From: Bernardetia sp.
GTDB taxonomy: Bacteria; Bacteroidota; Bacteroidia; Cytophagales; Bernardetiaceae
DNA: 40,527 nt
Assembly (NCBI RefSeq): GCF_020630935.1
Contig: NZ_JAHDIG010000045.1
Location: 1 to 40,527, forward strand
Direction of reading: 5' to 3'
Numbering within the stretch: position 1 is the stretch's first letter; each line of letters starts with the position of its first letter. The position numbers and the translations under genes were made by a program. The notes under the pieces were generated by a model. That model ran no database searches. It worked only from the letters and a program-made list of their open reading frames with translations, and was not told the origin of the DNA. Below are positions 3,583-36,956 of this stretch, one piece after another.

Positions 3583-3981
3583 ATGACAACGGATCCTATT
3601 GCAGACTATCTGACTAGACTCAGAAACGCAATCAAAGCTAATCATAGAATTGTAGAAGTTCCAGCTTCAAAATTGAAGAAGGAAATGACTAAAATTTTGT
3701 ATGATAAAGGCTATATACAAGGCTATAAATTTGTAGATGCACCAGTAGGAGCTTCTATCAAAATAGCATTAAAGTATCATCCTGCTACTCGTACTCCTGC
3801 TATCACGCACTTAGAGCGTGTAAGTAAGCCAGGTTTGCGTCAGTACCGTAAGTCTGATGAATTACCTCGTGTACTCAATGGATTGGGTATCGCTGTAATC
3901 TCAACTTCACACGGTGTTATGACTGACAAAGAGGCAAGAAGTAGCAACGTAGGAGGAGAAGTACTTTGTTACGTATATTAA
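3583..3981 (+). CDS. rpsH: 30S ribosomal protein S8
   Basis: S8 is a primary 16S rRNA binder and, in E. coli, the translational repressor of the spc operon. The length of 132 aa is normal (E. coli 130). Visible signatures are [13 protein letters not shown] at the start, [35 protein letters not shown] and a C-terminal GGEVLCYVY. Whether it represses this operon cannot be told from sequence. The spacer after it carries a 15-nt-period direct repeat. Confidence 0.97.
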
Positions 3982-4084
3982 TATTGCACTCATTTCATAT
4001 AATTCGTATAATTCATTTAGATTGTTTCAATGATAAGATGAGTTTCAAAATACATAATAATTTTATTACTATTTAGAGTAATTT

Positions 4085-4119
4085 AATTCGTAATTGACAA
4101 ATTCGTAATTGATAATTGA
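4085..4119. repeat. AT-rich direct repeat in the rpsH-rplF spacer
   Basis: aattcgtaattga occurs at 4085-4097 and again at 4100-4112, a 15-nt period, followed by taattga-like sequence. Related tracts occur at about 26-38, 425-436, 5721-5738 and 26988-27022. They look like members of an AT-rich spacer repeat family common in Bacteroidota, which is inference from resemblance. Confidence 0.5.
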
Positions 4120-4143
4120 ACCATCTAATAAATCTGATAGAAA

Positions 4144-4695
4144 ATGTCACGAATTGGTAAAAACCCAGTTACTATCCCTAGTGGAGTAACTATTAACGTT
4201 TCGGACAACACCATCAAAGTAAAAGGTGCAAAAGGCGAGCTTACTCGTACGATTGACCCTAGAATTTCTGTAAAAGAAGAAGATGGAAAGTTGGTTTTTG
4301 AGCGTTCTAACGAAGAAAAACAAACTCGTGCTATGCATGGTTTATACCGTGCTTTGGTACAGAATATGGTTCAAGGCGTATCTGAAGGTTACAAGACTCA
4401 ATTGGAGCTTGTAGGTGTAGGATACAAAGCAGAAGCAAAAGGACAAATTCTTGAGCTGAACTTGGGTTACTCACACAATATCTTTATGCAAATTCCTAAA
4501 GAAGTTAGTGTAAGTACTGAGATGCTAAAAGGTCAGAACCCTAAAGTTACCTTAGAATCTAGCGACAAAGAATTACTCGGACACATTACTGCTAAAATAC
4601 GCTCACTTCGTAAGACTGAGCCGTACAAAGGTAAAGGTGTACGCTTTGTGGGCGAACAGATTCGTCGTAAGGCTGGTAAGAGCGCAGGTAAATAA
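4144..4695 (+). CDS. rplF: 50S ribosomal protein L6
   Basis: L6 binds 23S rRNA near the GTPase-associated centre and the sarcin-ricin loop. At 183 aa it is close to E. coli (177). It begins MSRIGKNPVTIPSGV and ends with the signature RKTEPYKGKGVRF followed by GEQIRRKAGKSAGK. Two tandem L6 folds of about 80 residues each are expected. It is separated from rpsH by 162 nt and from rplR by 99 nt, both unusually long. Confidence 0.97.
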   Translation: MSRIGKNPVTIPSGVTINVSDNTIKVKGAKGELTRTIDPRISVKEEDGKLVFERSNEEKQTRAMHGLYRALVQNMVQGVSEGYKTQLELVGVGYKAEAKGQILELNLGYSHNIFMQIPKEVSVSTEMLKGQNPKVTLESSDKELLGHITAKIRSLRKTEPYKGKGVRFVGEQIRRKAGKSAGK

Positions 4696-4794
4696 TCGTT
4701 GAGTAATTTTAACTGATTGAAAAATTAGTATAAAAAAAATAATACGATAACTTCGTGTTCCTTATTTTGAGAAATTTTATAATAAACTAGTATC

Positions 4795-5151
4795 ATGGCA
4801 ACTACCTCACGCAAGAGTCAGCGTCGAACTCGTATTAGACGTAGTATTCGTAAAAAATTAGCGGGAACAGCCGAAAGACCACGTCTTTCTGTATTTCGCA
4901 GCAACAAATATATTTATACCCAGCTCATCGACGATGTAAATGGGCGTACCCTTGTGAGTGCTTCTCTCAAAGATATTGATGCTGAGAAACATATCAACCA
5001 AGAACTATCAAAGCAAGTAGGTTCAAAACTTGCTGAGCGTGCTAAAGAAAAAGGTATCGATAAAGTAGTTTTTGACAGAAATGGTTTCTTATATCACGGA
5101 AATATCAAAGCAGTAGCAGAAGGCGCACGAGAAGGTGGACTTCAATTCTAA
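4795..5151 (+). CDS. rplR: 50S ribosomal protein L18
   Basis: L18 binds 5S rRNA together with L5. The length of 118 aa matches E. coli (117). A basic N-terminal tail ([16 protein letters not shown]) precedes [20 protein letters not shown]. The C-terminal [20 protein letters not shown] is highly conserved. rpsE follows after 26 nt, the usual order, and this is one of the few tight junctions in the block. Confidence 0.97.
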
Positions 5152-5177
5152 ACACTTTGCAACCGACCTCATAAATT

Positions 5178-5693
5178 ATGGCAGCAAACGTAAATACCGT
5201 TAAAGCAAGCGAAATAGAACTAAAAGAAAAAGTAGTTACTATCAATCGTGTAGCAAAAGTAGTAAAAGGTGGTCGTCGTTTCAGCTTTGCAGCATTAGTT
5301 GTAGTTGGCGATGGCAACGGTGTAGCAGGTTACGGTCTTGGTAAAGCCAATGAAGTAACAGATGCTATTCAAAAAGGTATAGAAGACGCTAAGAAAAACT
5401 TAGTGAAAGTACCAATTATCAAAAATACGATACCACATCCTATTATTGGTAAATTTGGCGCAGCTAAAGTAATGCTCAAACCTGCAACGCCAGGTACTGG
5501 AGTTATTGCTGGTGGTGGTGCAAGAGCCGTATTGGAAGCAATCGGTATCGAAAACGTACTTGCTAAGTCTCAAGGCTCAAATAACCCAGGAAACGTAGTT
5601 CGTGCTACATTTGATGCATTATTGCGTATGCGTGATGCAAAAGCAGTAGCAGAGCAGCGTGGTGTTAATCTTACCAAAGTTTTTAATGGGTAA
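5178..5693 (+). CDS. rpsE: 30S ribosomal protein S5
   Basis: S5 acts in translational fidelity and the mRNA entry helicase region. The length of 171 aa is normal (E. coli 167). The dsRBD-like segment [20 protein letters not shown] is followed by the S5 C-terminal fold with [32 protein letters not shown] and the [16 protein letters not shown] motif. It is preceded by rplR (26 nt) and followed by a 190-nt AT-rich spacer before rpmD. Confidence 0.97.
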
Positions 5694-6888: not shown

Positions 6889-8223
6889 ATGAAGAAGTTT
6901 TTTGAAACTATAAAAAATATCTTTTCTGTAAAGGAACTCAAAGACCGTATTTTCCTTACTATTGGATTACTAATGGTTTTTCGTTTAGGTTCTTTTATTG
7001 TTTTACCTGGTGTTGATCCAAGTAAACTTGATACAGGAAAAAATGGTATTTTAGGCTTTATAGATAATATTTTAGGAGGTGCATTTGAGCGTGCCTCAAT
7101 ATTTGCCTTAGGTATCATGCCTTATATCTCTGCATCAATTATCATTCAACTTCTTACTGTGGCTGTTCCGACATTCCAAAAAATGCAGAAAGAAGGAGAG
7201 TCGGGTCGTAAAAAACTTACTCAAATCACTCGTGCGCTTACTATACTTATTACTATCGGACAAGGTTTTGCCTACTTAAAAGGAACTGTTCCAGTAGATG
7301 CAATTATTATAGATCAAACGTTCTTCTTAATATCATCTATTGTTATTCTCACTTCAGGTACAGTTTTCTGTATGTGGTTAGGAGAAAAAATCACAGATAA
7401 AGGAATTGGAAATGGTATTTCACTTCTCATTATGATAGGTATTATCTCACGTTTCCCAATGGCAATCGTTTCAGAAGCAACTTCAAAAGGAGCAAGTGGA
7501 GTATTTCTTTTTGTTTTAGAGGTTTTAGCTTTATACTTGGTAGTTATGGGAGTTGTTCTTATTGTACAAGCTGTACGCTATGTTCCACTTCAGTATGTAA
7601 AGCAAGTAGCAGGTCGTTCTCAAAAGCAAATGCTTACTCAAAAGAAACGTTCTGCATTACCTCTTAAAGTAAATGCAGCAGGTGTAATGCCAATCATCTT
7701 TGCACAAGCACTTATGTTTTTACCTCCTTTGGTAGCTGGAGCTTTTCAAGGTGATGATACGCCAAATGCAGATTATGTAGCACAAGCATTTTCAGACTTT
7801 ACTTCAATAGAATACAATGTTCTTTTTGCTGTCTTGATTATTGCATTCACGTTCTTCTATACTGCAATGACTATCAATGTACAACAAATTGCAGATAATT
7901 TGAAAGATAGTGGAGGGTTTGTACCAGGTGTTACTCCAGGGGAAGAAACCAAAAACTACTTAGGTAAAATTTTAGATAGAATTACTCTTCCAGGTGCAAT
8001 TTTTATTGCGATTGTAGCTGTACTTCCTGCTTTAGCAGCAGCAGCTGGTGTAGGTACTCAGTTTGCTCAATTCTATGGAGGAACATCTCTTCTCATTATG
8101 GTAGGTGTTGTATTAGATACACTTCAACAGATTGAGAGTTACCTATTGAACAAAGAATACGATGGACTTATGAATACAGGAAGTGTAAAAGGTCGTCAAG
8201 CACAACCAATGAACTATATATAA
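6889..8223 (+). CDS. secY: Protein translocase subunit SecY
   Basis: Central channel of the Sec translocon in the inner membrane, exporting unfolded proteins and inserting membrane proteins. At 444 aa it equals E. coli SecY (443), with ten hydrophobic segments. Visible signatures include the plug/TM2 region ALGIMPYISASIIIQLL, GIGNGISLLIMIGII and the cytoplasmic loop NLKDSGGFVPGVTPGEET, part of the SecA/ribosome-binding face. It follows rplO at 135 nt behind a hairpin and is closed by a strong terminator, so secY ends a transcription unit here. Confidence 0.97.
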   Translation: MKKFFETIKNIFSVKELKDRIFLTIGLLMVFRLGSFIVLPGVDPSKLDTGKNGILGFIDNILGGAFERASIFALGIMPYISASIIIQLLTVAVPTFQKMQKEGESGRKKLTQITRALTILITIGQGFAYLKGTVPVDAIIIDQTFFLISSIVILTSGTVFCMWLGEKITDKGIGNGISLLIMIGIISRFPMAIVSEATSKGASGVFLFVLEVLALYLVVMGVVLIVQAVRYVPLQYVKQVAGRSQKQMLTQKKRSALPLKVNAAGVMPIIFAQALMFLPPLVAGAFQGDDTPNADYVAQAFSDFTSIEYNVLFAVLIIAFTFFYTAMTINVQQIADNLKDSGGFVPGVTPGEETKNYLGKILDRITLPGAIFIAIVAVLPALAAAAGVGTQFAQFYGGTSLLIMVGVVLDTLQQIESYLLNKEYDGLMNTGSVKGRQAQPMNYI

Positions 8224-8294
8224 ATCAAAACAAATCACTTCTTCATTGTATTATATAATGCGAGTACGACTTGTTTAGATTTTAAAATCATTAT

Positions 8295-8332
8295 ACAAAG
8301 CATCAAGAATCGACTTGATGCTTTGTTTTTTT
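8295..8332 (+). terminator. Intrinsic terminator after secY
   Basis: acaaagcatcaag (8295-8307), 6-nt loop, cttgatgctttgt (8314-8326): a perfect 13-bp stem followed by a run of T. This is a classical Rho-independent terminator that should end the ribosomal/secY transcript before map. Confidence 0.9.
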
Positions 8333-8386
8333 AGATGAAATTATTAACCCTTTATTTTACTTTTTGATAATAAAATCAATAGAAAA

Positions 8387-9175
8387 ATGGGAAAACCAAT
8401 ATACAAAACAGCACAAGATTTAGAGAAAATGCGTAAGAGTGCTGACCTTTTAGGACGCACACATGCTGAAATTGCCAAACGCATTATGCCTGGAATCACT
8501 ACCAATGAGCTTGATAAGATAGCTTATGAGTTTATCAAGGATAATGGAGCAAAACCTAGCTTTTTAGGACTATATGATTGCCCTAGTTCTATTCTTACTT
8601 CTGTAAATAATCAAGTAGTTCATGGCTTACCCAATAACAGACCTCTAAGAAATGGCGATATTATTTCTGTTGATTGTGGTGTTTTCTTAGATGGTTTTCA
8701 TTCTGATAGTGCCTATACTTATGAAATTGGTAATGTTGCCCCAGAGATTAGGAATCTATTGAAAGTTACTAAAGAAGCCTTGTATATTGGTATTGAGAAC
8801 ATGAAATATGGCAATAGAATAGGGGATATTAGTAATGCCATTCAAAAGCATGTAGAAAAAAATAATTATACAGTGGTTCGTGAGCTAGTAGGACATGGAG
8901 TAGGAAGAAAGATGCATGAAGCTCCAGAAGTACCTAACTTTGGAAAAGCAGGTAAGGGAGAAAAAATTAGAAATGGACTTGTGATTGCTATTGAGCCAAT
9001 GGTAAATATGGGGAGTCGTAGTGTTTTGCAGTCAGATGATGGATGGTCTATTGTAACAAAAGATGGAAAACCTGCTGCCCACTTCGAACATACAGTTGCT
9101 TTAGTGGATGGAAAACCAGAAATCTTGACAACATTCAAGTATATAGAGCAAGCTATTAAGATGTTTCATAATTAA
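8387..9175 (+). CDS. map: Methionine aminopeptidase type I
   Basis: Removes the initiator methionine from nascent proteins, in the cytoplasm. At 262 aa it matches E. coli MAP (264). The five metal ligands of the pita-bread fold align with the E. coli enzyme, shifted by one: D96, D107, H170, E203 and E234. The substrate-contacting histidine is in NNQVVHGLP (H79). map follows secY as in many bacteria, but a strong terminator lies between, so it needs its own promoter (a poor -7-like TACTTTTTG lies near 8359). prmC follows after 33 nt. Confidence 0.97.
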   Translation: MGKPIYKTAQDLEKMRKSADLLGRTHAEIAKRIMPGITTNELDKIAYEFIKDNGAKPSFLGLYDCPSSILTSVNNQVVHGLPNNRPLRNGDIISVDCGVFLDGFHSDSAYTYEIGNVAPEIRNLLKVTKEALYIGIENMKYGNRIGDISNAIQKHVEKNNYTVVRELVGHGVGRKMHEAPEVPNFGKAGKGEKIRNGLVIAIEPMVNMGSRSVLQSDDGWSIVTKDGKPAAHFEHTVALVDGKPEILTTFKYIEQAIKMFHN

Positions 9176-9208
9176 TACTGTTTCTTCTTAGTTTTCATTA
9201 TTTCTTAG

Positions 9209-10087
9209 ATGCTCATTTCAGAATTTATAAAAAAAAATACTCAGTATTTACTTTCTACTAATCAGACAGATGAAAGGGAAGTACAAACAATACTGCGTTT
9301 TTTAATTGAAGATACTTTACAGATAAATAGAATTGATTTCTCTAGTCGTTTCTTAACACAACAAGAAATTGAGTTTCTAAACCAAAGTGTAGAGCGCCTG
9401 AAAAATAATGAACCTCTACAACATATTACTAAAAAGGCTTATTTCTATGGTTTAGACCTAGAAGTAAGCCCTAATGTCTTGATACCCCGACCCGAAACAG
9501 AAGAACTGGTACATCAAATTTTAAAAGACTTTGAGAATAGAAAAGAGAACAAAGAAATATTTTTAGAAGTTGGTACAGGAAGTGGGTGTATCAGTATTGC
9601 TCTTGCTAAAAATTTACCTAATTTTCATTTTATTGCGATTGATATATCTGAAAAGGCTTTAGAGATAGCTAAAAAAAATGCTAAGAAAAATAATGTGGAA
9701 AATATAGAATTTCTACAACTAAATTTTCTTGATAAAGAAGAGGTAAGAAACTGTAAAGCGATAAAAAATATAACACATATTGTCAGTAATCCTCCTTATA
9801 TAAAGGAAAATGAGAAGGCAACTATGAGTGCAAATGTCCTTGATTATGAGCCACATATAGCACTTTTTGTAGAAAACACCAATCCTCTCATTTTTTATAA
9901 AGCCATTGCTGAATTTTTCACAAATACTACTGTTAATAAGAATAGTTTCTTATATGTTGAAGTCAATCAATATCTAGCAAAAGAAACAAAAGAGCTTTTC
10001 ATAAGTTTTGGATTAGAAAATTGTATTATTTTTAAAGATTTGCAAGAAAATTTACGATTTGTCAGAGCAACTTATGAGTCGTTTTAG
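9209..10087 (+). CDS. prmC: Peptide chain release factor N5-glutamine methyltransferase
   Basis: Methylates the glutamine of the GGQ motif in release factors RF1 and RF2, using SAM. At 292 aa it is near the usual 277-290. The N-terminal helical domain (about 1-85) is followed by a Rossmann methyltransferase domain with motif I VGTGSGCISIALA (121-133) and the catalytic NPPY (194-197). The IPRPETEELV stretch at 92-101 is diagnostic for PrmC/HemK. It lies 33 nt after map and is likely cotranscribed, a pairing of two protein-maturation enzymes in the place where infA-rpmJ-rpsM would be expected. Confidence 0.93.
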   Translation: MLISEFIKKNTQYLLSTNQTDEREVQTILRFLIEDTLQINRIDFSSRFLTQQEIEFLNQSVERLKNNEPLQHITKKAYFYGLDLEVSPNVLIPRPETEELVHQILKDFENRKENKEIFLEVGTGSGCISIALAKNLPNFHFIAIDISEKALEIAKKNAKKNNVENIEFLQLNFLDKEEVRNCKAIKNITHIVSNPPYIKENEKATMSANVLDYEPHIALFVENTNPLIFYKAIAEFFTNTTVNKNSFLYVEVNQYLAKETKELFISFGLENCIIFKDLQENLRFVRATYESF

Positions 10088-10167
10088 TGTAGTATCCAAT
10101 TTTATTTTTTTGACTTTTGAGAATTTTTTTCCTAAAAAACATATTATTTCGCACTAACTCTGCTTTT

Positions 10168-10198
10168 TTTGCTTTAAATTTGCAAACAACTATCTTTG
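10168..10198 (+). promoter_or_regulatory. Perfect Bacteroidota promoter 500 nt upstream of the PorE-like gene
   Basis: TTTG at 10168-10171, 19 nt, TATCTTTG at 10191-10198: an exact match to TTTG-N19-TAnnTTTG. The predicted start is near 10205, with about 505 nt to the next start codon, so it drives either a very long leader or a small RNA. Confidence 0.8.
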
Positions 10199-10208
10199 TA
10201 TTTTTATG

Positions 10209-10246
10209 GAAAGAATAATTTGTTATTATACCTAACAAATTCTTTC
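10209..10246 (+). other. Hairpin at the start of the 10.2 kb transcript
   Basis: gaaagaataatttgtta (10209-10225) pairs with taacaaattctttc (10233-10246), with a bulge of about 3 nt in the left arm and a 7-nt loop. It begins a few nucleotides after the predicted transcription start. No poly-T follows. Confidence 0.5.
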
Positions 10247-10710
10247 TAACCAAAATTTATTTTAATTCAAACAAATTGCGAAGTATTTTTTATACTATGA
10301 AATGCAATAAAGACATGTCATTCTTTTAGTTTTGAATGATTTGTCTGATGAAAAAGTCTGTTCTGTATTTGTTTTTACGTATTTTTGCGTTATATTTTTA
10401 CAGAGAGATTTTGATAAAAACCAAAAATAAGGTATAGAAATAATTATGAGTAAAAATAAATAGTAGATTAAATTTGAGTAGTCTTATAAAACATATCAAA
10501 TTCTAGCGATTTTTGATGTACAGACTAACTACTCACTTTTTAAAGTATTTTTAATAACTTTAGTAGAGTTTTGAAAATTTTTCTTAGGAAAATCTACTTT
10601 ATTTTCGATTTATGCTAAATTATTTCAACTTAAAGTTGGTCTCTTTTATAGTATTTATTTTCTTTGTAACAACTTAACCTAATCGCTAATCTCAATCTAA
10701 TACCCTGATT
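10247..10710 (+). other. Non-coding stretch with second promoter and nested hairpin
   Basis: No gene is visible. A second promoter-like pair lies at 10357-10387 (TCTG, 19 nt, TATTTTTG). Nested inverted repeats lie at 10476-10534: gagtag pairs with ctactc, tc with ga, and acat..caaa with tttgatgt inside. The sequence acttttt follows directly at 10535-10541, as in an intrinsic terminator. A weaker -7-like TTTCTTTG lies at 10659-10666, 45 nt before the PorE-like gene. Together these would fit an independently transcribed small RNA of 150-340 nt followed by a separate promoter. No known RNA family was recognised. Confidence 0.4.
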
Positions 10711-12672
10711 ATGAAAAAAGGAATCCGTAATTTGAGCTTATTGCTCATGTTTCTTTTAGCTGGGACATTTGTTAAGGCACAAGATGATGCCTCTACAACA
10801 GCTGAAAGCGACGACAAAGCAAAAGATGGTGCTACTAGCATCTACGAACAATGGCGTGACCCACAGCGTTTTCGCTTACCTCCTGCCGTAAATCAACTAA
10901 TGACTGATGAAGTGTCTCCTGCTATCAGTCGTGATGGAAAAACTCTTATTTTCCAATCTAACCGAGGAAAAACTTGGAAAGGATATGGTCTTTACATGAC
11001 TACTCGTGATGACAATGGCAAGTGGACTAAGCCAGTTGCATTAGAATCAATTAATTCTAAGGCTGGAGATAGCACTGTAATTGCAGGTCCTTTTCTTAGC
11101 TACGACGGACTTAGCCTTTTCTTCTCTTCTAACATGGAAGATACTAAAGGAGGAATGGATTTGTATGTTTCTACTCGTGAAAGCAAAGATGGAGAGTTTG
11201 GCGAGCCTACTAACTTAGGTGATGTAAACACTGCTGATTATCAAGGTTTCCCTACAGTTTCTGCTGATGGAAATCGTCTTTACTACATGCAACGTGCTGA
11301 AGGTGCAGAGAATGAAACTTCTGAAGCTGGTTCAACTGAAGGAACAGATGCTAAAAAATCTGGTAAAGAAAAAGTATGGTGTTATACAGCTATGGTTTCT
11401 AAGCGTTCTGCTGACGACAAGTGGTCTGCTGGTGAAGAGCTAGAAGGTGCTATGAACGAAGATTGTAGCAAAGCATTCCGTATCATGCCTGACGGTGAAA
11501 CAATGTTCTATACTTCTATGAGAGATGGAGCTAAAATGCAAGCAAACACTAAAGGTATCCGTGCTGATGCTAAAGATTTTGATTTGTTTATGTCAAGAAT
11601 GGAAGGTGAGTCTTGGGGTGAGCCTATGGCTGCTGATTTTGCTAATCACCTTTCAGCAGAAGGCTATGTAACAGTTGCTCCAGACGACGGAGCGCATACG
11701 GTTATGTATTTTGATGCAGATATGAATGCTTCTCATGAAATTTTCTGGACATTAGTACCTCCAGGATTTGCTCCTCGTAAAGTAATGTTAGCTCGTGGTA
11801 ATGTAGAGGATTCTGTAACAGGAGAGCCTGTATATACTATCATGAAGTTTGAAAACCTTACTCGTCCTTCTTTAGGATATGACCGTTACAACGACGAAGA
11901 AACTGGTAAATTCTCTACTGTAATTACAGAAGGAAATAAATATAAAGTAAGCATTAATCACGAAGATTATTTGCCTTATGAGTTTATGTGGGATTTCACA
12001 GATGCTGACGAAATCACAAACCTTTATCAGAGAGTACGTCTAGTACCTAAAGGTGTTGAAGTTACAGTTACTCTTCTTGATGCTATTGATGAGCAGCCAG
12101 TAGATGCAAAACTTACTGTTAAAGCAGCTGATGATACAAGCATTGGAGATGTAGAAAAAACAGGAACTGGTAAATATGAAGCTCGTCTTGATCCAGGACA
12201 AGTTTATACTCTCACTGCTGAAGCAACAGGAAACTATATGGAAGAAACAGATACTTTAGACCTTACTCAAGCGCAGTTTGGAGACAAAGTAAACAAGATT
12301 CTTTATATGCTTGATGCTACTAAAATCAAGTTTGACAACATCAACTTCGCAACAGCTCGTTGGGATTTGAATGCAGAAGCAAGAGCAGAACTAGACAAAG
12401 TGTATCAGTTCTTGACAGATTATCCTAAAATGAAAATCCGTATTGAAGCTCACACTGACTACCGTGGTGGAGATTCTTACAACCAACGTCTGTCTCAAAA
12501 CCGTGCTAAATCTGCATTGGATTACTTAGTTGGAAAAGGTATTCCTACAGAGCGTTTGGAGTCAGAAGGATATGGTGAATCACAACCAACTGTTCCAAAT
12601 GAAGTGAACGGAAGAGCTAACCAAGCTAACATGGCAATCAACCGTCGTGTAGAATTCAAAATTGTTAGATAA
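10711..12672 (+). CDS. PorE-like outer-membrane protein: PD40 propeller, CRD-like and OmpA domains
   Basis: 653 aa. A signal peptide ends near residue 23 (TFVKA before QDD). PD40/WD40-like propeller blades follow (about 65-350: SPAISRDGKTLIFQSNR, LSYDGLSLFFSSN, FPTVSADGNRLYYMQR, FRIMPDGETMFYTS). Next is a beta-rich region resembling a carboxypeptidase-regulatory domain (about 370-440). The C-terminal OmpA peptidoglycan-binding domain (about 540-653) contains HTD (581-583), with D583 and R598 as the expected ligands of diaminopimelate. This order matches PorE of the type IX secretion system, which ties the outer-membrane machine to peptidoglycan. The N-terminal TPR of PorE is absent, so it may be a paralogue. 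The next gene is a T9SS cargo. A strong terminator follows. Confidence 0.82.
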   Translation: MKKGIRNLSLLLMFLLAGTFVKAQDDASTTAESDDKAKDGATSIYEQWRDPQRFRLPPAVNQLMTDEVSPAISRDGKTLIFQSNRGKTWKGYGLYMTTRDDNGKWTKPVALESINSKAGDSTVIAGPFLSYDGLSLFFSSNMEDTKGGMDLYVSTRESKDGEFGEPTNLGDVNTADYQGFPTVSADGNRLYYMQRAEGAENETSEAGSTEGTDAKKSGKEKVWCYTAMVSKRSADDKWSAGEELEGAMNEDCSKAFRIMPDGETMFYTSMRDGAKMQANTKGIRADAKDFDLFMSRMEGESWGEPMAADFANHLSAEGYVTVAPDDGAHTVMYFDADMNASHEIFWTLVPPGFAPRKVMLARGNVEDSVTGEPVYTIMKFENLTRPSLGYDRYNDEETGKFSTVITEGNKYKVSINHEDYLPYEFMWDFTDADEITNLYQRVRLVPKGVEVTVTLLDAIDEQPVDAKLTVKAADDTSIGDVEKTGTGKYEARLDPGQVYTLTAEATGNYMEETDTLDLTQAQFGDKVNKILYMLDATKIKFDNINFATARWDLNAEARAELDKVYQFLTDYPKMKIRIEAHTDYRGGDSYNQRLSQNRAKSALDYLVGKGIPTERLESEGYGESQPTVPNEVNGRANQANMAINRRVEFKIVR

Positions 12673-20100: not shown

Positions 20101-21105
20101 ATGCTTGCCCTACGCCTCCTAGAAAAAGACAGTTCTCATTCTGATAGAATTCAGCTTCAAGATGTTAAAACACCTGAACCAAAAGAAAACGAAGTGCTTA
20201 TCCAAATGCAAACAGCAGCTCTCAATCGTAGAGACCAATGGATAAGAGAAGGACTTTATCCGGGTATTCGCCCTGCAACGTTGGGTTCAGACGGTTGTGG
20301 AATTGTCGTAAAGACAGGCGAAAATGCAAAAAAATGGGAATCCAAAACGGTAATTATCAATCCAAATAACAACTGGGGAGACGACGAGAGACACCAATCA
20401 GCTGATTATCATATTTTGGGAATGCCTACTGATGGAACATTTGCTGAATTTCTTTGTGTAAATCAAGATAGGTTAGTAGAAAAACCAAAATCACTTTCTT
20501 TAGAAGAAGCTGCTGCTTTGCCACTTGCAGGTCTTACAGCCTTTCGTTCTGCGTTTTATCATGGAGGCATTAAGAAAGGAGATAAAGTTTTGATTTCGGG
20601 TGCTGGTGGTGGCGTAGCTCAATTTGCCTTTCAATTTGCTGTGGCAGCAGGAGCAAAGGTTTTTGTAACTTCTGGAGATGATGAAAAACTAGAGAAGTTG
20701 GAAGAAATGGGGGCAGCAGGTGCTGTAAATTATAGAGATGAAGATTGGAATAAGCAACTCAAAGAAATGGTAGGAAGTTTTGATTGTGCTATCGATAGTG
20801 CAGGAGGAGAAACCTTTGCCGAAATTATCAAACTCTTAGGACGTTCTGGACGTATAGTTTTCTATGGAGCAACGCTTGGCTTGCCTCAAAAAATTGATTT
20901 GTACAGAATGTTTTTCAATCAAATCCGTATTCAAGGCTCAACGATGGGAAGTGATAAGGAATTTGTAGAGATGGTAAACTTCGTAGAGAAACACAAAATA
21001 AAACCTATTATTGGTTCAGTTACACCTTTTTCTGATATTATTTCAGCCTTTGATACCATGAAAGAAGGAGAAGGCTTTGGAAAGCTCGTTGTTTCTATGA
21101 AATAA
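20101..21105 (+). CDS. Zinc-free MDR-family oxidoreductase (quinone oxidoreductase-like)
   Basis: 334 aa medium-chain dehydrogenase/reductase, NAD(P)H-dependent, cytoplasmic. The GroES-like N-terminal domain (about 1-125) has AALNRRDQWIREGLYPG and LGSDGCGIVV. The Rossmann domain carries the dinucleotide motif ISGAGGGVAQFAFQFA (165-180). The four-cysteine structural-zinc lobe is absent, so it belongs to the quinone oxidoreductase/YogA-like group and not to classical zinc alcohol dehydrogenases. The substrate is unknown. The ATG at 20101 is supported by the MLALRLLEKD start and by ATTATG context. Convergent with the methyltransferase gene on the other strand. Confidence 0.87.
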   Translation: MLALRLLEKDSSHSDRIQLQDVKTPEPKENEVLIQMQTAALNRRDQWIREGLYPGIRPATLGSDGCGIVVKTGENAKKWESKTVIINPNNNWGDDERHQSADYHILGMPTDGTFAEFLCVNQDRLVEKPKSLSLEEAAALPLAGLTAFRSAFYHGGIKKGDKVLISGAGGGVAQFAFQFAVAAGAKVFVTSGDDEKLEKLEEMGAAGAVNYRDEDWNKQLKEMVGSFDCAIDSAGGETFAEIIKLLGRSGRIVFYGATLGLPQKIDLYRMFFNQIRIQGSTMGSDKEFVEMVNFVEKHKIKPIIGSVTPFSDIISAFDTMKEGEGFGKLVVSMK

Positions 21106-21117
21106 CCCATTCAAATT

Positions 21118-21144
21118 CTGACAGACCTCTTTTGAGGCTGTCAG
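21118..21144. terminator. Hairpin between convergent genes, REP-like
   Basis: ctgacagacctc (21118-21129), loop tttt, gaggctgtcag (21134-21144): an 11-bp stem with one bulged A. It lies 13 nt after the oxidoreductase stop and 18 nt before the end of the convergent gene. Palindromes of this kind (ctgacag...ctgtcag) are frequent in Bacteroidota spacers, which is remembered resemblance and not a search result. Confidence 0.6.
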
Positions 21145-21161
21145 TAATTTTAGAATAAAGT

Positions 21162-23431
21162 TTATTCGAATAATTTTACTTGTCCTCCTTTTTTCAATCG
21201 CCAAGATTCTTCTCCTACTCGTTCTGCAATATCCTCCAAAACTTTCAAAATAGTTTGTGCTTCTGGAGTAATTCCATTTTTGAGAAGAGGTAAAATATGC
21301 AAAACAATTTCATCAAAACGAGCCTTTTTGTTTTCTCTTTCCATTCTTCGAAGATAAGAAATCAAATAATAACGCACTCTCAAATGTAAATCAATATGTG
21401 TTTTGAATTTTTGATTTTTTTGAATGGTAAAAAGTTCTGTTTTGTCATCATAATCAAAAGTTCCCAAGAGAAAAGGCGTAAGGTCAGAATATTCTTTTTT
21501 CAATAAATCTAAAAAGCCAAGTTCTAAGCCTTTTATGATTAGTTCGTCGTTGATTTGCTCTAAGGTAGCTCCGTTATTTTGTGCAATGACACCTTCAGTT
21601 GTTTGGATAATTATTTCAGCGATATTCATTCCTAAAGCAGCTTTCATAATCGCTCTAGGCTTTCTAACTTTCTTAAAATTAATGATAAGCTGACCAGATA
21701 AAACAGTAAATGGATGCTGACGTTTCTTAAAACTTGTCTGTCCATTTTTTTGAGCCACAGCACCAGCATATTCAAAACCACAACGCTCTGCTGTTTCGAC
21801 TATCAAATGCCAAAACTCTGGGTCTTTGTGAGCAAATACAAAACTCATCCATCTATCAAACTTCAAAACACGATACATTTCTTCTATCGATTTTGCCATC
21901 AAAGAGTTGTACTCGTCTTTGCTTTTCTTTTGCTCTCCTCCTTCTATGGCTTCTAGTGCAAAATCCTCTTCCGTTACTTCCAAATCTAGCCACGCATTCC
22001 ACATCGTACTCAAATCTAAGTAGGGAATCTTCTTTCCATACGGTGGGTCTGTATAAATATAATCTACACTTTCTTTCTTAATAAAACTCAAATCCGTAGC
22101 CGTTCCTTTTACTATTTGGGCGTTTTTATTTATTTCCTCTACTGTACTGTGAAATTTTATTACTTCTAATGCTATTTCTTTTTTAGCATTAACTATAGCT
22201 GATACTTTTTTCTCAAAGTTGGGTATAAAGTCTAGTTCTACCTCATCTGGAGCAATTCTGTAACGATAATACCTCATTGGAGAACTATCTCCAGCGTTTT
22301 TACTTGCAGATTTAGAGTGATGATAAGTGAGATTTATTTTATTTACTAAACTAGAGAAAGCCAAAAGCAATGATTTTTGAATATTTTTATCTTTAATTTT
22401 TTAATAAGATGTTTCACAAATGCAAGTTTGGCTTTTTGTTCATCTGAAAACAAATCTTCTATCACTTTTACATCAGAGCCTTTAGGCAAAGCAAAGCCAG
22501 TAGGGTAAGAGTGTTTTTTGAGTTGTTCTTTTTGCTTCTTGGTATCCCAATTTTTGAAATTTTCTATATCTGATTTTTCGTATTCAGCTTTTATTTTCTC
22601 AAATGCTAGTTTGAGGTCGCTTATTTTGACAGGAGCTATCAAGGCTTCTACCATAAATACAGACATTGGATTAATATCTATGTGAATGGCTTTTCTACCT
22701 ATCATTAAGGCTTCTATGGCTGTTACCCCAGAGCCACCAAAAGGGTCTAATACTACATCGTCTCTCTGCGAAAAGTGACGGATATATTCTTGCACTACAT
22801 TCCAAGCCTGCCGAGTAAAATAACCGTGTACACCAAAATGACGTTTGGCAGCTCTCTTTTTTACATTTATTTCCTCTAAAAAAGGTTTTTCTAAGTAGTT
22901 GAAGTTTTTATTAGATTCTGTTTGTTTATGAAAACTCTTAGGGTCGGTGTAAGTATATTGTTTTCCAGTTTGAAAGGCTGAAGGAGAAAGCAAGCTTTCT
23001 AACTGCTGCCAATGGTGTTCTATATCTCTGATAGGAAAAAATAGAAGTGGTTTTTTCTCATCATCTCTAAACAAAATAAATTCCTTCCCATTACAAAGAG
23101 CAAAGAACTTGGTACGTACTTCGGGATGAATAGCATAGGAATAGACTTGTTCTATATGGTCGCTGTCGTGTATACTTTCATTAGGAGCTTTGGCATCTAA
23201 CACCCATGCATAACTTTCTCCAACTTTGAATAAATAGTCTGGAACGAGATGTATGTTTCGTTTTTTTGAGCCTATTTTTACAAAAGGATGTTCCAATGTT
23301 TTACTTCTAACAATGCTATTATGGTTATAACCTAATTCATGAAGAATAGGCAAAATAAGAACTTCCCTAACACTATCTTCTTTGAAATCAGGATTATCTA
23401 ATAAGTTGAAGTCAAAATTTTCGAAAAGCAT
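21162..23431 (-). pseudogene. PD-(D/E)xK nuclease plus DNA methyltransferase, split by a frameshift
   Basis: Two overlapping frames read as one gene of about 755 codons. Frame 1 (23431 to 22346, 361 aa) has an HsdR-N-like nuclease domain with PD (64-65) and DAK (79-81), then KKRAAKRHFGVHGYFTRQAW and methyltransferase motif I, LDPFGGSG (228-235). Frame 2 (to 21162) supplies motif IV, YTDPPYGKKIPYLDL, and a helical C-terminal region of about 270 aa. Neither half holds a full SAM-plus-catalytic site. The frames join if one A is added to the A6 run at 22397-22402: HLIKK then continues IKDKNIQKSLLLAFSSLVNK. The IPYLDLSTMWNAWL stretch after DPPY resembles DUF1156-like methylases. Intact, it would suggest a one-polypeptide restriction-modification or self-methylating nuclease. 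It could instead be an inactive gene, an assembly error or a slippage-controlled gene. Confidence 0.82.
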
Positions 23432-23463
23432 ATTTTATATTTTAATAGCAAAGAAATAAAACA

Positions 23464-23491
23464 CAAACATATTAAAACCTAAACAAACAAA
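23464..23491 (-). promoter_or_regulatory. Candidate promoter of the nuclease-methyltransferase gene
   Basis: On the minus strand TATGTTTG (23471-23464) matches TAnnTTTG and lies 32 nt before the ATG at 23431. A TTTG lies 16 nt upstream (23491-23488), shorter than the ideal 19 nt. Confidence 0.4.
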
Positions 23492-23589
23492 GAAATAATT
23501 TTTATACGAACTAAATTTTACCTTAAAAAATCACAATAAATCTAGTTTTTATTTAAAAAATGTAACCTTTTTCAATACACAACAACGTA

Positions 23590-36452: not shown

Positions 36453-36956
36453 TTATCGTTCCTTGTCATTTAAAAGATAGAGGTTTATCGCTCCTATGGG
36501 TTCTGTAATTTTGAAATTCCTGTCATCTATTTGTACTAAAACTAATAGTTTTTTTCCGTGAGCAAACTTTCGCCTACCTTGAAAGGCGAAGATATCCAAA
36601 AGCATTGTTATACTCCACTCATCTAAATAATTTAAGTGCCTAAAAACTATTACTGTACCATTTTGATGGACTTCATAATCGTATAAGCAATCGTTGAGAG
36701 CATCGAAATTTTTACCATAATAATCTGGAAAGTTTAGCTTCTGTTGTAGGTCATAATGTAGTTCTGTCTTGTTTGATAGAAAGTTTCCTTCAAATTCTAT
36801 TATCTCATAACTTTTGTCTTCCAGTAACTTAATATCATAATCTAATACGCTTTCTTTGTGATACAACCTCACGAAACCATTTCCTATTATACTCAAATCG
36901 ACATTTTTATCTCTTAGTTGTTGTCTTTTTTTAGCTTTATCTTCGTGGTCTGCCAT
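36453..36956 (-). CDS. Barstar-like RNase inhibitor
   Basis: 167 aa. The C-terminal half carries the barstar signature FPDYYGKNFDALNDCLYDYE (about 96-115), the loop and helix that plug barnase-type ribonucleases, followed by a strand-rich end. About 90 residues at the N-terminus are extra compared with barstar itself (about 90 aa). No barnase-type or toxin gene lies in the visible neighbourhood, so the partner may be elsewhere, or this is an orphan immunity protein for a polymorphic or T6SS/T9SS toxin. The protein has no export signal, consistent with cytoplasmic protection. Confidence 0.78.
   Translation of the reverse strand: MADHEDKAKKRQQLRDKNVDLSIIGNGFVRLYHKESVLDYDIKLLEDKSYEIIEFEGNFLSNKTELHYDLQQKLNFPDYYGKNFDALNDCLYDYEVHQNGTVIVFRHLNYLDEWSITMLLDIFAFQGRRKFAHGKKLLVLVQIDDRNFKITEPIGAINLYLLNDKER

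Follow-up and report, generated by a model that had tools for sequence, protein, structure and literature searches.

The window analysed here is one entire contig of 40,527 bases from a 4.75-Mb draft genome that is assembled in 153 contigs. On its minus strand, two open reading frames that overlap by 25 nt in different frames share out the motifs of a nuclease and a DNA methyltransferase. The locus therefore raises the question of whether these frames are two genes or one and, if they are one, whether the break between them is a switch, a working division of the enzyme or damage to it. An earlier note had read them as a single nuclease-methylase gene with a one-base frameshift between motifs I and IV, placed at a run of six A that could serve as a slippage switch. 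The features concerned are the following.

22346-23431, minus strand: ORF A, 361 aa, with a PD-(D/E)xK nuclease domain, motif I of the methyltransferase and the first part of the insert after it.
22922-23431, minus strand: N-terminal HsdR/Type IIG-like nuclease domain, placed by alignment, a model of the relative L029 and fold matches.
22397-22402, minus strand: A6 run of the coding strand (T6 on the plus strand), where the frame leaves that of the family.
21162-22370, minus strand: ORF B, 402 aa, opened by a TTG start at the 5' end and carrying motif IV (TDPPYG), the remaining methyltransferase fold and the conserved C-terminal helical part.
21104-23515, strand not given: segment present here, in place of which the congener G006 has 162 bp.

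Motif I reads DPFGGSG and lies in ORF A, and TDPPYG lies in ORF B. The frame of ORF B is open only from 22400, with a TAA directly upstream, and the final 18 or so codons of ORF A are off the frame of the family. The ORFs, the placement of the motifs and the position of the A6 run are all as the earlier note had described them.

Comparison with other genomes revealed that the two halves belong together. Among 39 genomes, ORF A as query (E ≤ 0.001) finds some match in 15, its own included, mostly short and around the methylase motifs, and ORF B finds some match in eight. Three other genomes give strong full-length matches, with identities of 68, 59 and 58 % to ORF A and of 76, 72 and 71 % to ORF B, respectively. 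In these three, both halves form one open frame of 742-790 codons, which from the start codon encodes proteins of 740, 782 and 745 aa, and their alignment passes through the join uninterrupted. Because three relatives hold the whole protein in one uninterrupted frame, the join reflects real homology, and a chance pairing of unrelated ORFs is ruled out. The single gene with a one-base frameshift is thus borne out, as is the expectation of intact homologues, which are about 740 aa long and read in one frame.

Wider sampling showed that intactness is the rule in this family. Among 291 genomes of the order, a profile search (E ≤ 1e-60) matches 15 genomes, 12 of them with one uninterrupted frame; the other three are the present window and G118, both frameshifted, and G147, a distant relative without the nuclease. 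The frameshift of G118 lies near residue 527, not at the break of the window. In a sample of the phylum, 10 of 395 genomes match, seven uninterrupted, together with the window, G384 and G636. The G384 protein is divided near residue 506 between two contigs (residues 1-507 and 505-741), and the G636 gene begins at base 1 of its contig. The two pieces of G384 lie at C49:84307-85827 and C70:60687-61397, and each frame is longer than its match. With G043 and the window belonging to both samples, 22 different genomes hold the family, 18 of them in uninterrupted form. In a named collection, the best 80 of 195 relatives all match in a single frame (two are cut by contig ends), in a ranking that disfavours broken copies; Thermoflexibacter ruber (L052) and Algoriphagus boseongensis (L060) are examples with an intact gene. 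Identity to the reference relative is 59-72 % for the 79 other sequences, and the family is widespread, with 11 phylum labels.

Two truly separate genes, divided at this very position in homologues, had been set beforehand as the case that would speak against a single gene. No such two-gene arrangement is seen among the 291 genomes of the order, the 395 of the phylum or the best 80 of 195 named loci; the broken or partial copies are those of G118, G384 and G636 and a 50-residue remnant in G008. One locus of the collection, L041 from Thiospirillum jenense, contains two complete tandem copies (8001-10214 and 10336-12546) whose proteins are 93 % identical, an arrangement unexpected for a single-gene restriction-modification enzyme.

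The intact protein is a fusion of a nuclease and a methyltransferase, in which an HsdR/Type IIG-like PD-(D/E)xK domain is followed by a methyltransferase in the order motif I, insert, motif IV, and by a helical C-terminal part. The first 155 residues, modelled separately for the relative L029 (mean pLDDT 88.9), fold as a PD-(D/E)xK nuclease. This model matches the HsdR fragment 3h1t (VIA Z 13.2, 135 residues, rmsd 5.1), BpuSI 3s1s (Z 11.7, 137 residues, rmsd 3.6) and DrdV 7lvv (Z 11.7, 133 residues, rmsd 3.1). Since unrelated mitoribosomal chains appear in the same fold list at Z 8.1-8.5, only its top rows count. The motif set comprises, in the numbering of the relative, E18, P64-D65, D79-A80-K81 and Q95xxxY99, and the row of the window has all of these residues. 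In an alignment of 22 rows, P64-D65, A80-K81, Q95 and Y99 are invariant and D79 is present in 90 % or more. The Pfam model HSDR_N stays below its own cut-off (17.9 versus 25.1 bits), so the assignment is carried by fold and motif. The PD-(D/E)xK domain that had been recognized from the letters stands on their agreement, although HSDR_N falls short.

The methyltransferase occupies residues about 185-576; its motif I spans 227-233 and its motif IV 446-451. Between these motifs lies an insert, about 150 residues long and mostly helical (including 268-414), which was placed on a whole-protein model of L029 (mean pLDDT 81.4). In the alpha-class arrangement, the recognition domain lies between motifs I and IV. 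The best Pfam match of this part is N6_N4_Mtase, in permuted order; N6_Mtase gives no match up to E = 1 for the halves of the window or up to E = 0.1 for five relatives. BpuSI and MmeI belong to the gamma class, and the structurally known Type IIG enzymes are expected to match models other than N6_N4_Mtase. Helices make up most of the C-terminal part (about 585-735), which is strongly conserved over its first 60 residues: mean pair identity per block of 20 residues is 0.70-0.89 over 581-640 and 0.44-0.64 in the insert. The break of the window falls midway through the insert, where a loop is predicted to link helices 323-337 and 342-358. A sequence search of solved structures returns only short matches around the methylase motifs, for example RsrI and CcrM, and the fold searches with the whole model are filled by matches to the methyltransferase core.

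Among the known systems nearest to the family are the Type IIG enzymes of the BpuSI and DrdV/MmeI kind, which likewise place the nuclease first and the methyltransferase after it in one polypeptide from a single gene, and of which BpuSI and DrdV are matched by the family's N-terminal fold. Stimulation of cleavage by S-adenosylmethionine is a further trait of Type IIG enzymes. Both domains lie in one polypeptide throughout the intact family; in the window, this polypeptide is interrupted. Unlike these enzymes, the family is compact (about 740 aa, versus 870 for BpuSI and about 1010 for DrdV), and its methyltransferase is distinguished by the DPFGGSG...TDPPYG motifs, the N6_N4_Mtase match and the helical insert. 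The nuclease itself has its best fold match in the N-terminal domain of Type I HsdR, with which it shares the conserved Q95xxxY99 and D65...D79-A80-K81; in contrast to HsdR, the family protein is without a helicase part, and no HsdM- or HsdS-like gene was recognized among the scanned ORFs of the window. A core is also shared with the PADLOC PglX/PglXI models (PDLC02541: E 8.4e-47 for residues 313-573 of an intact relative, E 3.2e-34 for ORF B), whereas Pfam recognized no BREX-type neighbour among the scanned ORFs. The earlier note had further seen a resemblance to DUF1156-like methylases. A loose match does exist, but ORF B reaches only 19.0, ORF A 11.7 and an intact relative 18.2 bits with the model NF042963, whose cut-off is 1000. 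Finally, the available text of PMC4389544 describes HVO_A0006 of Haloferax volcanii as the nuclease piece of a fused enzyme that stands apart from its methylase, as the two frames do here; there the pieces are two distant genes, whereas here they are two overlapping frames of one locus.

Several related proteins depart from this architecture. L123, L126, L127, L128 and L129 form a sister family without the nuclease (766-778 aa) in genomes of the same order, with about 34-38 % identity across the methyltransferase part; of these, L126 and L128 match models of the PglX-like kind and, with weak scores, of DUF1156. Conversely, stand-alone proteins on the Nostoc plasmid pNPM4 (L130:4001-4876) and an Acidithiobacillus caldus megaplasmid (L131:4034-4957) are 48 and 44 % identical, respectively, to the nuclease domain alone. 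Both are annotated as HsdR N-terminal domain proteins, and no methylase is annotated in their stretches of about 8.5 kb, the plasmid gene tables being incomplete. No record in the plasmid and phage collections covers 80 % of the protein. Three IMG/VR contigs (L273, L274 and L275) carry full-length members that are 53-62 % identical. Among the papers listed by PMC searches on this architecture, none names the family in its title or abstract opening; as these searches covered PMC rather than REBASE or most subscription journals, we stop short of calling the family new to the literature.

Could the break be a switch? As a phase-variable contingency locus, the gene would be turned on and off by slippage at the A6 run, in the manner of the Helicobacter pylori Type IIG genes JHP1272 and HP1353-HP1354, for which the available text of PMC3936762 reports phase switching. 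The frameshift does fall in a homopolymer of a restriction-modification gene, but the run is only six long and is ordinary for both gene and window: the split gene contains 13 A or T runs of at least six, three of them of length seven, and the 40.5-kb window has 105 of exactly six and 51 longer ones. Half of the intact rows (40 of 80) also have an A-run of at least six somewhere in the break segment, defined as residues 331-349. This frequency was compared with synonymous shuffling within each gene (100 shuffles; 80 intact sequences from 79 loci, with L104 left out and L041 counted twice). The shuffles predict 38.9 rows (sd 3.1) with such runs, and 25.0 rows with runs of at least seven, where 26 are observed. 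When the gene is divided into fixed segments of 19 residues, an A-run of at least six occurs in 38 rows for the segment with the break (324-342), in 41-51 rows for five other segments and again in 38 for one more. A conserved homopolymer was accordingly rejected as a candidate: runs of A6-A7 do occur in half of the relatives' segments, yet shuffling shows that they match what lysine-rich, AT-rich coding yields. Moreover, the homopolymer is neither longer nor more conserved than expected, all 80 of the loci retained as the best among 195 are in frame (a selection that disfavours broken copies), and the second frameshifted copy, in G118, breaks elsewhere in the gene. The slippage switch proposed in the earlier note does not hold up against these counts, and we regard a contingency locus as very improbable.

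Similar considerations apply to a gene that is naturally split or recoded, in which ORF B would be made by re-initiation at its TTG, by -1 frameshifting or by transcript slippage, and the pieces would reassemble. Both halves are conserved, the break lies in a predicted loop, and two-polypeptide methylases exist, the C5-methylases M.AquI and M.EcoHK31I being examples in the available text of PMC3404938. Transcripts do acquire insertions at A/T runs (PMC5574713, as far as its available text goes), and a tssM gene broken at a run of 11 A is described in the accessible part of PMC4256274 as rescued by transcript slippage. However, the same text of PMC5574713 gives an insertion rate that is exponential in run length, which makes a run of six weak. 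A canonical X XXY YYZ slippery heptamer for -1 frameshifting is absent at the break, where only T AAA AAA is present; the RNA fold there is not unusual (z = +0.89 versus shuffles), and the two-frame arrangement at this site is seen in none of the relatives found. The heptamer, downstream structure and conserved site of a programmed -1 frameshift are thus all lacking. Because A-runs are as frequent as in shuffled genes, the run is short, and neither a slip heptamer nor an RNA fold marks the break, an evolved switch or programmed recoding is unlikely. A naturally split or recoded enzyme appears highly doubtful, and we give equally little weight to the idea that the two frames work as a two-piece enzyme, its pieces being produced independently, or at times linked by slippage, before they reassemble. 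If true, its activity would be tuned by the level of the second piece, and the locus would represent a first step of a fused enzyme turning split. That neither half would be an active methylase by itself, as the earlier note had it, is likely given where the motifs lie; the claim is softened by the examples in the available text of PMC3404938, since co-expressed halves could in principle complement each other.

The remaining question is how old the break is, and whether it is real. Of the columns that are invariant in 80 family sequences, half A (the first 343 residues) keeps 44 of 45 and half B all 90, the sole loss being L332V, close to the break. Among columns conserved in at least 95 %, half A keeps 34 of 36 and half B 79 of 79; over these 115 columns, intact members show a median of two departures (range 0-22). 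The frameshifted copy in G118 likewise keeps 127 of 127 invariant columns. With 134 of 135 invariant residues kept and no decay, the lesion in the window is either very young or not real.

An error of sequencing or assembly at the homopolymer, with the gene intact in the organism, would account for this lack of decay, for a lesion of one base within a homopolymer and for its occurrence in a draft assembly of 153 contigs. Against it, when 1.24 Mb from the present genome was compared with 1.2 Mb from the complete congener G001, no frameshift appeared in 191 other shared orthologues (about 250 kb), nor in 190 in the reverse comparison; the test recovered 145 of 191 simulated single-base deletions and also flagged the gene of the window. 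By the rule of three, the error rate is bounded at about 1.6 per 100 kb, with which one error is still compatible. These zero counts favour a real indel, without proving it, and weaken the case for an assembly error. A survey that covered 1,106 genomes regards isolated frameshifted genes, when homologues confirm them, as likely sequencing errors or indel mutations (available text of PMC3711429). Our judgement is about evenly poised on whether the lesion is a natural, very recent inactivating indel; a sequencing or assembly error is a realistic possibility that we rate below the natural indel, and it is counted within our preferred explanation.

The surroundings of the gene are consistent with a self-contained unit. 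The left end of the window is a cluster of ribosomal protein and SecY genes, and the gene itself is flanked by genes for a zinc-binding dehydrogenase and a tricorn-like S41 peptidase. Of the 37 ORFs of at least 90 aa in the window, five that are nested inside larger ORFs were outside the Pfam scan; in the 30 other ORFs scanned, Pfam found no restriction or DNA-methylase domain, and five of these matched no family. A Barstar-family protein (36453-36956, minus strand; Pfam E 4.6e-15) in the same window is a possible immunity gene. Across 80 related loci, many of them with short flanks, the commonest neighbour family, an ATPase-type cluster, occurs in 10. No conserved partner gene was found and, as no neighbour family exceeds 10 of the 80 loci, the gene seems to travel alone. 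The suggestion of a lone bifunctional enzyme thus apparently holds, both for the scanned ORFs of the window and for the related loci.

The family is patchily distributed among genomes, and none of the six congeners searched has a full-length match. In G006, the dehydrogenase and peptidase genes stand side by side, with the 162 bp replacing 21104-23515 of the window. G001, G002 and G004 have unrelated sequence at the corresponding site, the peptidase gene of G003 is turned round, and G005 gives no dehydrogenase match. In G008, from the same family of genomes, only the last 50 residues of the gene remain. This C-terminal remnant (L151:3696-3845) lies beside ORFs 3896-4657 and 4617-5480, which we take to resemble a three-Cys-motif partner/Gp37-Gp68 pair, and one defence gene may have been replaced by another there. 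Compositional evidence of transfer is weak at best: the G+C content of the gene (33.8 %) is near that of the window (34.6 %), with 39.4 and 38.6 % in the two flanking genes and 33.8 and 33.5 % in two contigs compared. On the family tree, the phylum label has to change 19 times, against a minimum of 10, which does not prove transfer.

Taken together, these results make it very probable that the locus is a recently inactivated, or mis-assembled, copy of a Type IIG-like single-gene restriction-modification family, carrying a one-base frameshift that is not conserved. In the intact enzyme, the HsdR/Type IIG-like PD-(D/E)xK domain would cut unmethylated DNA, and the amino-methyltransferase, in which the insert separates motifs I and IV, would keep the sites of the host protected. 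A single recognition unit, made up of the insert, the C-terminal helical part or both, may steer the two activities. After the frameshift, the nuclease piece would lack both motif IV and the C-terminal part, and the frame of the other piece is open only from the break onward, so that nuclease and methylase activity would most likely be lost together and the loss would be harmless to the host. With these parts missing from the nuclease piece, we expect no untargeted cutting and no unprotected sites.

For the biology of such enzymes, this suggests that a frameshift in a one-chain protein should disable cutting and protection together and so permit loss without self-restriction, which would fit the patchy presence of the family and its other damaged copies. 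The broken copy itself is ordinary. More useful is the family: a compact, strongly conserved nuclease-methylase for which no partner was found, and which could therefore be assayed after a single cloning step.
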